From an uncultured Colwellia sp. (lineage in GTDB: Bacteria > Pseudomonadota > Gammaproteobacteria > Enterobacterales > Alteromonadaceae), in the NCBI GenBank assembly GCA_913062815.1, contig CAJXWZ010000007.1, positions 1 to 64,000 on the forward strand: DNA of 64,000 nt, in the 5' to 3' direction. Below, in pieces: positions 22,666 to 56,407 of this stretch; within the stretch, counting starts at the first letter, position 1; every line of letters starts with the position of its first letter. Below the pieces are notes generated by a model. The model was not told where the DNA came from and made no database searches. It saw only the letters and a list, made by a program, of their open reading frames with translations. A program made the position numbers and the translations under genes.

Positions 22666-22690
22666 ATTTAGATGACACTTTTATGACAAT
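22666..22690 (-). promoter_or_regulatory. Pho box and promoter of phoB
   Basis: On the minus strand TGTCAT repeats with an 11-bp period (22683-22688 and 22672-22677), the PhoB direct-repeat signature. Ten bases beyond the box lies CACAAT as -10 (22656-22661), the spacing seen in classic Pho promoters, where the box replaces the -35. Confidence 0.8.
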
Positions 22691-22788: not shown

Positions 22789-23736
22789 TTAGAATTTATA
22801 CTGAATCCCTGCGGCCAAATAATCTTCATCATTACCGGTATCCATATCAAAACTAGTATAAAAAGCATACAGCTTAGTGTTACTAGCGAGTTTATAATCT
22901 AGACCCGCGGTAATACCACTGCGATCATCACCATCAGCATGATTCGCCATTTGATATTGGCCTTTAAGTGTTACCTCGCCTAAATTATACTTGGCAGAAA
23001 CCATTACACCGTCCATTTCAGCGCCGGTATCAATGTTCTCTTGGTTCTGTACCATCAAACCCATAGTGAAGCCCGCTAATTTACCTTGTACTGTCGCTCG
23101 TACAGTGTCGAAATAACCGCTAGCAGCACCATCTTTTGATTTACCCTTAACCTCTGAATCCATAGCAATTGAGGCAAAAACCTTAGATTTTTTAAGTTTT
23201 TTATCACCAAAGATAGCGGCAATTGAAAACGAATCTTTACCATCCACTTCGTCTTCAGCTTGATAAGTAGCACCGATTTGAAAACCTGAAAATGATGGTG
23301 ACTTATAAGTTATAGTATCATTTAAACGATTTTCGCCAGCCCAAAGGTATTTAATATCGGCATTTAAATCACTGAACAAATCAGTTTTCCCTTGTGATTG
23401 CTTCAACATAGTGTCATTTTTACCCAATAACACTTCACCAAAACCGCCCTTTAAACCTATGTATTGATTACGCGCTTTCCAAACGTCACCATCACCATCA
23501 AGGTCAACTTCAAATTCTGCTTTATAAACAACCTCTAAATCTTCGCTTAATGCATGTGTGCCTTTAAAACCTAGCCGAGAAGCATTACTTTTAACTTCGC
23601 TAAAACTACCTTCGCCTTCATCGGATGATTGTAATGAAACATCAGCTCGGCCATAAATATCAATACTGGCTGCAAATGCAGGGAAAGCTGAAATTGAACA
23701 CATCGCTAAGGCTAGTGTATTTTTTACTAGTTTCAT
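22789..23736 (-). CDS. Gram-negative porin, probably phosphate-inducible
   Basis: Outer-membrane general porin (Porin_4/OmpC-like) of 315 residues. The signal peptide ends at FAA (about residue 22), the mature part starts SIDIYGRADVSLQ, and the chain ends in the barrel signature IQYKF. SRLGFKGTHALSEDLEVVYKAEFE is typical. It sits directly upstream of phoB on the same strand and is preceded by three Pho-box repeats, so it is likely a phosphate-starvation porin analogous in role to PhoE. Pore selectivity is inference. Confidence 0.9.
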   Translation of the reverse strand: MKLVKNTLALAMCSISAFPAFAASIDIYGRADVSLQSSDEGEGSFSEVKSNASRLGFKGTHALSEDLEVVYKAEFEVDLDGDGDVWKARNQYIGLKGGFGEVLLGKNDTMLKQSQGKTDLFSDLNADIKYLWAGENRLNDTITYKSPSFSGFQIGATYQAEDEVDGKDSFSIAAIFGDKKLKKSKVFASIAMDSEVKGKSKDGAASGYFDTVRATVQGKLAGFTMGLMVQNQENIDTGAEMDGVMVSAKYNLGEVTLKGQYQMANHADGDDRSGITAGLDYKLASNTKLYAFYTSFDMDTGNDEDYLAAGIQYKF

Positions 23737-23803: not shown

Positions 23804-23897
23804 ATGGTATTCATGATTTATTACATAAATATGACAAAGCTACAGTTTTATTAGACGAATATGACAAACCCCTGTTTTATTGTACTAATATGACAAA
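23804..23897 (-). promoter_or_regulatory. Three tandem Pho boxes upstream of the porin
   Basis: On the minus strand the unit TTTGTCATATT plus a T-rich tail occurs three times: ATGACA on the plus strand at 23831, 23861 and 23890, spaced 30 and 29 bp. Each is followed 11 bp later by a degraded second half-site (TGTAAT, TCTAAT, TACAAT). The gene-proximal copy has -10 TACCAT (23804-23809) exactly 10 bp beyond it. The rest of 23737-24083 is A/T-rich with nothing else recognised except the kinase leader. Confidence 0.8.
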
Positions 23898-45099: not shown

Positions 45100-45136
45100 T
45101 TTATCGGACAAGAGTATATGACACAAATATGACAGT
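45100..45136 (-). promoter_or_regulatory. Pho box upstream of the DUF47-pit operon
   Basis: On the minus strand CTGTCATATTTGTGTCAT: TGTCAT repeats with an 11-bp period (45129-45134 and 45118-45123). A GATAAA (45100-45105) about 12 bp downstream is a possible -10. It lies about 135 bp before the DUF47 start and points toward it. Confidence 0.78.
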
Positions 45137-45171
45137 TTTATTACAACTTAAAGACCAGAGAATAAAATAGT

Positions 45172-53053: not shown

Positions 53054-54211
53054 GTGAGCACCAACTTATTAAAAGAGCCGCCGTTGTCTTTATATATTCA
53101 CATACCTTGGTGTGTGGAAAAATGTCCTTATTGCGACTTTAATTCTCATGCCTTAAAAGCGGTAATTCCCGAAGAAGATTACGTAAGCGCCTTGATTGCA
53201 GATTTAGACGCTGACATAGCCCGCTTCGACGTTGAAAATAGAGCGCTGCATTCAATTTTTATTGGTGGTGGCACACCCAGTTTATTTTCAGCAAAAGCCA
53301 TTAAGGAATTGCTATCACAAGTTTTATCACGTTTTAACCATGAAGCGGATATTGAAATCACCTTGGAGGCCAATCCTGGTACCGTTGAGGCTGATAAATT
53401 TATTGGTTTTGCCCAAGCAGGTGTTACGCGGTTATCTATCGGTGTGCAAAGTTTTGAGTCTGAAAAATTAATAAAGCTAGGCCGTATTCATAATGTAGAT
53501 CAAGCTAAGCAGGCTGCACAACTTGCTAAGACATCTGGTGTTAAGAGCTTTAATGTAGATTTAATGCACGGATTACCTAATCAAAGCATTGAAAATGCTT
53601 TAGATGACTTGAGAACAGCGATAAGCCTAAAGCCTGATCATCTTTCTTGGTATCAATTAACAATTGAACCAAATACTGCATTTCATTCTAAGCCCCCCAA
53701 ACTGCCTCAAGATGAAACATTATGGGAAATTCAAGATCAAGGTTTTAAGCTATTAGCCAATGCTGGCTATCAACAATATGAAATCTCAGCCTTTAGTCAA
53801 CAAGATAAACAATGCCAACATAATCTCAACTATTGGCGTTTTGGCGATTACCTAGGTATTGGTTGTGGCGCTCATGGTAAAATTACCAATTCAACCACAG
53901 GGGTAATTCAAAGGACAGTAAAAGTTAAACATCCAAAAGGTTACCTTGATAACAATCGTGACCCTTTAGATCACTTCAATAAGGTTAGTCATGATGAATT
54001 ACCCTTTGAATATATGATGAACCAGTTGCGTTTATTCGCTAGCTTTACTTTAAAAGATTATCAACAGCATACGGGATTAACAACGAATAGTATTTTACCA
54101 ACGCTACAATTAGCTCAACAAAAAGAGTTAATGGATTGTATTGACGGTAATTGGCAAGTAACCCCGCTAGGGCATCGCTATTTAAATGATTTATTGGAGC
54201 TATTTCTTTAA
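53054..54211 (+). CDS. hemW: Radical SAM heme chaperone HemW
   Basis: Radical SAM protein delivering heme, formerly mistaken for a coproporphyrinogen oxidase. 385 residues, GTG start. The iron-sulfur cysteines are 20, 24 and 27 in WCVEKCPYCDFNS; the fourth Cys typical of oxidase HemN is absent. GGGTPSLF, EANPGTVE and GVQSFES bind SAM. HemW C-terminal region is present. Follows rdgB and overlaps tadA by one base. Confidence 0.95.
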   Translation: MSTNLLKEPPLSLYIHIPWCVEKCPYCDFNSHALKAVIPEEDYVSALIADLDADIARFDVENRALHSIFIGGGTPSLFSAKAIKELLSQVLSRFNHEADIEITLEANPGTVEADKFIGFAQAGVTRLSIGVQSFESEKLIKLGRIHNVDQAKQAAQLAKTSGVKSFNVDLMHGLPNQSIENALDDLRTAISLKPDHLSWYQLTIEPNTAFHSKPPKLPQDETLWEIQDQGFKLLANAGYQQYEISAFSQQDKQCQHNLNYWRFGDYLGIGCGAHGKITNSTTGVIQRTVKVKHPKGYLDNNRDPLDHFNKVSHDELPFEYMMNQLRLFASFTLKDYQQHTGLTTNSILPTLQLAQQKELMDCIDGNWQVTPLGHRYLNDLLELFL

Positions 54212-54726
54212 TGATCTTAACAAGTGCTGAGTCAGATCAAGCCTTTATGCAACGAGCGTTTGAATTAGCTCAAAAAGCCGCGCAATTAAATGAAATTCCA
54301 GTTGGCGCAGTCGTTGTTTATCAAGGCAACATTATTGGCGAAGGCTTTAACCAATCAATACTGTTAAACGACCCTTCCGCTCATGCCGAAATGCATGCTA
54401 TTCGCCAAGCTGGCCAACATCTCAATAATTATCGATTACTTGATTGTACTTTATACGTAACACTTGAGCCCTGCCCTATGTGTGCTGGTTTATTAGTTCA
54501 TAGCAGAATAAAGCGGCTTGTTTACGCTAGCCCAGATTTAAAAACAGGTGCTGCCGGAAGCGCTTTTAATCTCGTAGCCAATACACAATTAAATCATCAA
54601 GTTGAAGTAAATAGTGGGATAATGACAGAGCAATGTAGTGCCCTATTGTCAGGCTTTTTCAAACGTCGGCGGAACGAAAAAAAGGCGGCTAAAATAGCTC
54701 AAAAAAACAAGCAAACAAAAAACTAA
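54211..54726 (+). CDS. tadA: tRNA adenosine deaminase
   Basis: Converts adenosine 34 to inosine in tRNA-Arg(ACG), essential for decoding. It has 171 residues. The zinc site is His58 and Glu60 in SAHAEMHAI, and Cys88 and Cys91 in PCPMCAG. ATG 54211 overlaps the hemW stop (TAATG). The basic tail RRRNEKKAAKIAQKNKQTKN is typical. It is near mltF and purL, as in E. coli. Confidence 0.96.
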   Translation: MILTSAESDQAFMQRAFELAQKAAQLNEIPVGAVVVYQGNIIGEGFNQSILLNDPSAHAEMHAIRQAGQHLNNYRLLDCTLYVTLEPCPMCAGLLVHSRIKRLVYASPDLKTGAAGSAFNLVANTQLNHQVEVNSGIMTEQCSALLSGFFKRRRNEKKAAKIAQKNKQTKN

Positions 54727-54737
54727 TGCTATTTTGC

Positions 54738-54863
54738 TTACGATGCCACTGTTTGTATTAACTGTTGATTAAAGTAAAACTGACGGCGAGTATTCACTTT
54801 TTGATGTTGCACTTTAAGTTGCTTTCTTCGTGCATTAGCTGAAATCTGCTTTCTTATTCTCAT
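54738..54863 (-). CDS. Small basic ORF with an upstream Pho box
   Basis: 41 codons on the minus strand from ATG 54863, beginning MRIRKQISANARRKQLK and ending QLIQTVAS. It has 11 arginine or lysine residues and no aspartate or glutamate; no cysteine, signal peptide or membrane segment is evident. A modest GAGAT ribosome site precedes the ATG. A good Pho box lies about 50 bp upstream on the same strand with a possible -10, which is the main reason to believe it. No family recognised. It could instead be a regulatory RNA. Confidence 0.5.
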   Translation of the reverse strand: MRIRKQISANARRKQLKVQHQKVNTRRQFYFNQQLIQTVAS

Positions 54864-54890
54864 CTTTATCTCTATTTAATCATTTATATT

Positions 54891-54931
54891 CAGCTCAGTA
54901 TTATCGATAAAGATGACAAAAATATGACAAA
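54891..54931 (-). promoter_or_regulatory. Pho box upstream of the small basic ORF
   Basis: On the minus strand TTGTCATATTTTTGTCAT: TGTCAT repeats exactly 11 bp apart (54924-54929 and 54913-54918). AATACT lies 10 bp downstream as a possible -10 (4 of 6). It points away from mltF and toward 54863, so the only target on that strand is the 41-codon ORF. Confidence 0.65.
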
Positions 54932-54952: not shown

Positions 54953-56407
54953 TTATTCTTCAGATTCGGAAGTTTGTGGTATGGAAGCATGTTCAAGCTC
55001 TTGCGCAGCTTCTTTTGCTTTAGCGTCTAACCATGTCAACGTATCGTAATAGCGGCGAATATTTTCAACATAATTTACTGGCTCTTTCCCGCGCGCATAA
55101 CCATATTTTGTTTTTTTATAATATTTTTTCAGTTGCAATAAAGGCAAACGGGATTTTACTTCTACCCAACGATCGGGATCTCCACCTTGTTGTTGAGTAA
55201 TAATTCGCGCATCGTTCAAGTGACCAAACCCGACATTATAAGATGCCAGCGCAAACCACATACGATCGGGACTCGGAATTCTATCAGGCATTTTAGCAAT
55301 CATACGTTTGAAATACTTAGTACCACCGCGAATGCTTTGCTCAGCGTCAAGGCGACTTTTAATGCCCATCTGTTTGGCCGTAGCGAGTGTCAACATCATC
55401 ATACCACGTACACCTGTGTGCGAGCGAGCATGGGGCCGCCAGTGTGATTCTTGATAACTAATAGCGGCGAGTAAGCGCCAATCAATTTCCTGCCCATACT
55501 TCTTAAACATTGGTTTATACTTCGGCAGTTTGGTCTCAACGGCTTTTATAAAGGTCCTTGTTTCAACATAGTTAAATTCTTCGATATGGCCGTAATATTT
55601 TTCATCTAACGCGAGTAATGTACCATCATGATGCACTTGACCAAAAAATTCGACTAAACTTGCCAAAATTGCATCATCACTGTTTTGACTTACCATCCAT
55701 GCTAAAGGATCTGCTTTTTTTATGGTAAAGCCAACGCTAATTTCAGGGTAGTAGCGACGATTTACCGCTAAAGTATTACTGTCAATAACGGTATAATCTA
55801 TCTCATCGTTAAGTAATTTGGTCAATAGCTCTTCACTATCAAATTCACTGGTTTCAATCCAATTAAGATCAGGGTTAATCTGTTTCAGGTTTTGCAAGTT
55901 CTCTACGTGGCTAGAGCTAGAAGTAACCATGAGTTTACCGGTTAGATCAGCTATTTTTCTTGGTCTAACATTACCTTGCTTGAAAACTAATTTCTGACTA
56001 ACTTTTTCATAACTAGGTGCAAAACGAAAGCGGGCTAGGCGTTTATCAGTAACCGCTAACCCAGCGGCAAGTAAATCAACCTCCCCGGTATTCAACTTAA
56101 TAAAAAGTTCATCAAGGGAGTAACTTGGCACTATTTTTAAATCTACATTAAGATAATCCGCGTACTTTTTAGCTAATTCATACTCAAATCCTGCGTAACT
56201 ATCTCCTTTAATATCATTTCCTTGCAAGTAAAAGCTATTAGGGCCATATAAGGTACCTACACTGACATAGCCCCGCTCAACAATACCAGAAAAATTCGCT
56301 TGTTGAGATTTCTCTCCGCAAGAAAAAAGCACACTAAAGAACAAGAAAATAATAAATAATTTCTTGAGTCCAAAGACATTTTTTCGATTAACCGAGGTAA
56401 TTTTCAT
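54953..56407 (-). CDS. mltF: Membrane-bound lytic transglycosylase F
   Basis: Cleaves peptidoglycan glycan strands. It has 484 residues. The N terminus is a signal with lipobox LFSC (Cys near 30), so it is probably a lipoprotein. Residues about 40-265 are a solute-binding-like regulatory domain ([30 protein letters not shown]). From about 290 the SLT domain carries the catalytic Glu in ISYQESHW, then [11 protein letters not shown] and [10 protein letters not shown]. Divergent from purL, as in E. coli. Confidence 0.94.

Follow-up and report, generated by a model that had tools for sequence, protein, structure and literature searches.

The tadA–mltF gap in the window

The window, i.e., the whole 64,000-nucleotide stretch of Colwellia DNA that was analysed, contains a small open reading frame (sORF) in the gap between two genes that we take to be tadA and mltF, names taken over from the original prediction. 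The features of the locus, together with two other Pho-box sites that served as positive controls, are as follows.

54211..54726, plus strand: tadA, tRNA adenosine deaminase, convergent neighbour and synteny anchor
54738..54863, minus strand: ORF of a small basic protein, 41 aa plus stop, ATG at 54863–54861; assigned from homologues, pN/pS and an AlphaFold-predicted helix
54897..54902, minus strand: –10-like hexamer AATACT, 10 nt past the Pho box
54913..54929, minus strand: Pho box TGTCAT-N5-TGTCAT, 12 of 12 positions, sequence TGTCATATTTTTGTCAT
54953..56407, minus strand: mltF, lytic transglycosylase, same-strand upstream neighbour and synteny anchor
22672..22688, minus strand: Pho box before phoB–phoR, pattern match in the window (positive control)
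45118..45145, minus strand: two overlapping Pho boxes (one exact, one with one mismatch; three half-sites) before a DUF47–Pit pair (positive control)

The arrangement described in the original prediction was found as stated: a perfect TGTCAT repeat with an 11-bp period on the minus strand (54929–54913), a possible –10, and a 41-codon ORF about 50 bp downstream, the exact distance from the end of the box to the ATG being 49 nt. The ORF had been said to encode 11 basic residues and no acidic ones, which holds when histidine is counted (6 R, 4 K and 1 H, with neither D nor E). Since the frame stays open for only 12 nt upstream of the ATG, the start of the ORF is well bounded. The ORF lies tail-to-tail with tadA, their stop codons being 11 nt apart. 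Upstream of it no Shine–Dalgarno core (AGGA, GGAG, GAGG or AAGG) is present, and the search for a terminator-like site close to the ORF gave none. At the gathering score no Rfam family falls on the ORF locus; the sole Rfam match in the window at that score is 6S RNA (RF00013, 93.8 bits), at 464–645 on the plus strand.

With up to one mismatch allowed, TGTCAY-N5-TGTCAY occurs five times in the window, against 0.85 expected, and one of 100 shuffles reached that count. In the 5.15-Mb genome the exact pattern occurs ten times and a reversed control pattern not at all. Three of the ten exact matches fall in the window: before phoB–phoR, before the DUF47–Pit pair and before the sORF (the names phoB–phoR, DUF47 and Pit being our presumptive reading of the translations). 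Because phoB–phoR and DUF47–Pit carry them, such boxes mark phosphate genes in this organism. The motif by itself proves nothing, since intragenic Pho-like matches exist: of the seven remaining exact genome matches, at least three (L051, L053 and L054) are inside long ORFs.

Two further observations concern the control sites. The three TGTCAT-like half-sites in a row at 45118–45145 make up a double Pho box, and the gene downstream reads as a Pit-type phosphate transporter. A porin-like ORF (22789–23736) sits between a one-mismatch Pho-like box (23820–23836) and the perfect phoB box on the minus strand; adjoining phoBR, it is possibly under Pho control as well.

Conservation of the protein and of its promoter

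The frame had been expected to persist between tadA and mltF in relatives, and it does. A single-sequence search of 61 relatives matched 32 of the 37 genomes of the genus (own genome included) and 0 of the 24 genomes of other families; profile A1 added two more (G013 and G020), giving 34 of 37. The genus genomes with no ORF match are G004, G022 and G030. In G030 (L087), tadA and the mltF match are about 40 nt from each other, the small gene missing between them. One or both of mltF and tadA adjoin the ORF in 29 of the 30 loci L001–L030, the exception (L002) being on a short contig. The pooled pN/pS ratio was 0.21 (11 sequences), with pN of 0–0.04 versus pS of 0.15–0.70 in close pairs. At the level of codons, these comparisons show the ORF to be a conserved protein under purifying selection.

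More distant relatives were sought by way of tadA, which served to locate the gap in 52 genomes from other genera or families and in the three genomes of the genus that gave no ORF match; the gaps yielded small basic ORFs sharing the same core. Profile A2, which includes these ORFs, matched 112 of the 394 genomes sampled from the order (E ≤ 0.01; the weakest few may be false), spread over 27 of 114 genera. In a class sample of 369 genomes, few of them from this order, A2 matched six, and the only credible ones (G000, G061 and G067) all belong to this family. The relatives that bear a name include Vibrio, Aliivibrio, Aeromonas and Thalassotalea. Here too the neighbourhood is kept: mltF and/or tadA flank the homologue in 39 of the 40 loci L149–L188, and in the named Vibrio loci (80 of the 100 relatives kept, V. 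cholerae not among them) tadA is convergent in 80/80 and mltF upstream in 78/80. On the strength of matching sequences, we read group f21 as probable Vibrionaceae and f25 as a group that appears to include Aeromonas. Profile comparisons joined the subgroups at 77–98% probability, except for Colwellia and Vibrio compared directly (12%); these two are joined because intermediate subgroups link them. The gene looks old in the order.

The ORF had been called overlooked, which is partly incorrect, as related proteins from Colwellia, Vibrio, Aeromonas and Thalassotalea are already listed under the name 'hypothetical protein', the source name that the close relatives in Colwellia and Litorilituus also bear. 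Among the matches listed from the open-licence PMC literature, no description of the family as a Pho-regulated small protein was present.

For the promoter we used 110 loci, one per genome, picked by protein and not by promoter, and scored the best box within 250 nt upstream; these counts retain two doubtful members, L171 (no mltF or tadA, 11.9 bits) and L173 (12.6 bits), and leave out the weak off-locus matches L040, L041 and L118–L120. The Pho box, like the frame, had been predicted to recur in relatives, and all 32 genus loci have one with 11 or 12 of 12 positions (32 of the 34 matching genus genomes were checked, G029 and G035 being left out). Outside the genus, 22 of 78 loci reach 11 or 12: 11 of 25 in the rest of f1, 9 of 12 in f9 and 2 of 13 in f21. 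No box of at least 11 was found within 250 nt upstream in f6 (0/15), f25 (0/10) or the single loci of f20, f3 and f10 (0/3). The same threshold was reached by 0–0.4% of shuffled sequences and, on the opposite strand, by 0 of 110 loci.

The –10 element is placed with equal regularity. In the 30 of these 32 genus loci taken for the test, a hexamer matching TATAAT in at least 4 of 6 positions lies exactly 10 nt past the box in 30/30, whereas no other spacing between 4 and 17 nt exceeds 14 of 30. The 10-nt spacing is favoured outside the genus as well, being found with 9 of 22 boxes of 11–12, 10 of 16 boxes of 10 and 6 of 39 boxes below 10. The pstS promoter of E. coli shares this box and, if its –10 is the hexamer that we take it to be, the 10-nt spacing too. 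For pstS, the sequence given in a PhoB ChIP-seq table of E. coli is TGTCATAAAACTGTCATA (PMC10294691). In the genus, TGTCATAAAACTGTCAT is present in 4 of 30 loci, and 4 more have C for the final T.

The boxes of the named Vibrio loci are degenerate: none of 80 reaches 11, and 24 of 80 have a box of 10 (shuffles, 2.8%). Second half-sites such as GTAACA occur in these Vibrio boxes, and halves of this type also appear in the E. coli PhoB ChIP-seq table, at omrA (PMC10294691). Pho control in some Vibrio species is thus plausible, judging from these degenerate boxes. Separately, a degenerate element, TGTCATATT(G/A)CAGTAACAAT...TATAAC, is kept before the homologues of a Vibrio splendidus-like group (several of L283–L300), 184–203 nt ahead of the match start.

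On these patterns, a PhoB-type promoter, i.e., a Pho box with a putative –10 at a fixed 10 nt, is shown for the genus loci and for part of the order. Apparent Pho control is seen in the Alteromonadaceae-like f1 and in f9, with weaker boxes in Vibrionaceae. It is not universal, because in f6, f25 and many f1 and f21 loci no box of at least 11 was detected and none of the 80 named Vibrio loci has a box of 11. As for translation signals, a Shine–Dalgarno core precedes 7 of 32 genus loci (14% in shuffles), a weak signal, and 57 of 109 of all loci (30% in shuffles). In the separate set of 80 named Vibrio loci, 67 have one.

V. cholerae may hold a member that has already been touched on in the literature. 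VC0865 lies, by locus number, between tadA (VC_0864, PMC12588516) and mltF (vc_0866, PMC8820737), and this position suggests that it belongs to the family. It has been reported as a 'conserved hypothetical' gene whose mRNA drops 3.4-fold on expression of the sRNA VqmR, and a translational gfp fusion to its 5'UTR and first 20 codons was repressed in E. coli (PMC6451090). If VC0865 is indeed a member, the gene undergoes transcription and, in its start region, translation, and an sRNA controls it; the family thus gives a reason to revisit this reported VqmR target. An AphA ChIP-seq site is listed inside the adjoining tadA gene, VC0864 (PMC6855506).

Predicted shape and possible functions

AlphaFold predicts the window protein as one helix spanning residues 2–40 (mean pLDDT 92.6), and a second AlphaFold model likewise gave one continuous helix (mean pLDDT 88.9). 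The median pI of the 110 members is 12.0; the median length in the family is 44 aa, against 41 for the window protein. Arg12 and Arg26 are invariant in 38 of 38 sequences of alignment A3, whose members were themselves found by profile; the invariance of Arg26 among the 110 is forced by the search pattern. The 22-residue core is evenly basic, with no hydrophobic face (p 0.93) and a weak conservation face (p 0.07). A membrane-lying helix is disfavoured because the core is evenly basic without a hydrophobic face; the predicted shape favours instead a binder of nucleic acid or another polyanion.

Family searches assigned no name. Pfam and NCBIfam scans returned no family over its cut-off; the match of one of 38 members to Fe_hyd_SSU (Pfam; E 8.2e-5, 23 bits vs a cut-off of 24) was judged to be due to chance. 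With four members, a PHROGs search found nothing below E 0.06, and PDB profile searches with A1, A2 and A6 gave weak, unrelated matches only. Single members are named '50S ribosomal protein L18/L20' or 'Transposase' in source records, names that look like annotation noise. A conserved basic peptide behind a Pho box that no Pfam or NCBIfam family claims at its cut-off is, in practical terms, a concrete gene for experiment.

The function that we infer, with slightly less than even confidence, is that of a PhoB-activated gene whose small and extremely basic product, a single helix, would bind RNA, most likely ribosomal RNA. At low phosphate, the box would take the role of a –35 element: phosphorylated PhoB would bind there and turn the sORF on; the evenly basic helix would then attach to RNA, most probably that of the ribosome, and the bound helix would tune or protect ribosomes during starvation. 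Ribosomes are the largest phosphorus store of the cell, most cellular phosphorus being in ribosomes and other RNA. To our knowledge, the adjustment of ribosomes to phosphate shortage in marine heterotrophs is poorly understood. The relatives in the same chromosomal gap, in Vibrio and other bacteria, suggest that the family may be a widespread, unstudied part of the response to this shortage.

The evenly basic helix and the median pI would also suit a protein that binds a polyanion other than ribosomal RNA, such as polyphosphate, DNA or an acidic lipid. Phosphate starvation shifts polyphosphate and lipid pools, which counts in favour of such a target. Nothing specific speaks against it, apart from the occurrence of the family in f6 and f25 with no detected Pho box. 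We regard this explanation as unlikely.

We give similarly low credence to a regulator acting by protein contact, e.g., on PhoR or another sensor kinase, which would close a feedback loop within the Pho system. Control by a Pho box would suit feedback, and there is a precedent: DUF1127 (YjiS) proteins, often shorter than 50 aa and Arg-rich, reportedly bind PhoR in A. tumefaciens and E. coli and alter the uptake of phosphate there (PMC12501420). However, the Pfam scans gave no DUF1127 match, two helices are predicted for DUF1127 proteins in that work versus one here, and our helix has no hydrophobic face. The family is also retained in f6 and f25, two groups in which no locus was seen to reach a box score of 11.

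Much less probable is a transcript that acts as RNA, be it a regulatory sRNA or a dual-function RNA, with the ORF secondary. The original prediction had offered a Pho-regulated sRNA as the alternative to a small protein, and a conserved promoter ahead of a short ORF that, in the window, has no Shine–Dalgarno core would be compatible with it. The small protein is nevertheless favoured, because purifying selection acts at the codon level; the protein core is moreover conserved across families, and the Rfam scan was empty at the locus at the gathering score. The first arm of the prediction, a small protein of phosphate starvation, is well supported by the conservation of frame and Pho box and by this codon-level selection, and its sRNA arm is the less favoured one.

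Comparably improbable, in our judgement, is that the transcript reads into the convergent tadA and lowers its expression in phosphate starvation, by antisense pairing or collision. The tail-to-tail arrangement with stops 11 nt apart, the overlap with tadA by up to 26 nt in relatives and the failure to find a terminator-like site would all fit. Against this, the distance to tadA is 98–728 nt in six ORF-bearing loci (L057, L058, L079, L081, L099 and L100), and L058, at 728 nt, retains a 12/12 Pho box; interference with tadA also leaves the conservation of the protein unexplained. Finally, a chance ORF beside a chance motif is scarcely credible: short ORFs abound (8 kb hold 50 with 30 aa or more) and the genome has its intragenic Pho-like matches, but frame, synteny, Pho box and –10 spacing are all conserved, which speaks strongly against coincidence.

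Comparison with known small basic proteins

Three ribosome-associated proteins were compared and set aside as demonstrated relatives. A bS21 (PF01165) is over its cut-off elsewhere in 26 of 26 genomes, and hhalign gave at most 2.1% for it. SRA (RpsV, PF08136), a stationary-phase ribosome-associated protein in E. coli (PMC9959377), is of like size at about 45 aa. It reached at most 2.1% by hhalign, and passes its cut-off in 13 of the 394 genomes sampled from the order, all in f18, a group with no genome among the 112 A2 matches. The ribosome modulation factor RMF (PF04957) is likewise short, basic and stress-linked, and the E. coli PhoB ChIP table includes a site at rmf, in an entry not marked for a significant change in expression (PMC10294691). 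The resemblance to RMF is a short end-on stretch (ungapped p 0.004, by permutation and by shuffles); hhalign gave at most 1.3%, and all 25 genomes tested have RMF as a gene of its own. As a side observation, G000 has three RMF genes over the Pfam cut-off (contigs C14, C48 and C50), and 20 of the 25 genomes have a single match.

The closest parallel is with bS22, described as a basic helix in the h2/h27/h44/h45 pocket near the decoding centre of mycobacterial, Bacteroidetes and Borrelia ribosomes, a pocket filled by mS38 (AURKAIP1, COX24) in mitochondria and by eL41 in eukaryotes; the Borrelia protein had been unannotated, and the authors anticipated further such proteins (PMC10618245, PMC5876184). 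The window protein resembles bS22, mS38 and eL41 in being small, extremely basic, helical and missed by annotation. It is longer than bS22 (41 aa, family median 44, vs 33 aa), and Pho control goes unmentioned for bS22 in the available text of these two papers (PMC10618245, PMC5876184).

By ungapped column permutation, bS22 scored best of eight sets (z 4.3, p 0.001), with the same register in five subgroups; since eight sets were tested (bS22, mS38, bS22 with mS38, RMF, SRA, bS21, bL34 and eL41), this p value is to be weighed accordingly. Sequence shuffles gave p 0.0025 and 0.0029 for bS22, whose comparison set was without Flavobacterium and Borrelia sequences. The other permutation values were 0.004 for RMF, 0.017 for bS22 with mS38, 0.04 for bL34, 0.09 for eL41 and 0.19 for mS38 alone, with no signal for SRA and bS21. 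Single subgroups against bS22 with mS38 gave p 0.03–0.17, shuffles against mS38 gave no signal (p 0.54 and 0.86), and hhalign probabilities in the bS22/mS38 comparison were weak (0.2–15.6%).

The NCBIfam model of bS22, NF047430, was over its cut-off in none of 78 genomes, 72 of which carry the ORF by other searches, and none of its 46 weak matches was at the sORF, a search whose loose first look may have dropped sORFs. Against the members themselves, it matched one of 38 A3 sequences (E 0.035), 0 of 10 from Vibrio and 0 of 10 others. Membership in bS22 is therefore not demonstrated; the profile permutation is suggestive, and a bS22-like mode of working is a live hypothesis.

In its boldest form, which we consider rather unlikely and which draws on the analogy with bS22, the family would be a ribosomal protein that marine gammaproteobacteria use conditionally, a helix in the manner of bS22, mS38 and eL41 entering an otherwise empty h27/h44/h45 pocket by the decoding centre, at the command of PhoB in Colwellia, other Alteromonadaceae and some Vibrio. 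If this were true, phosphate supply would directly alter the composition of the ribosome and its decoding.
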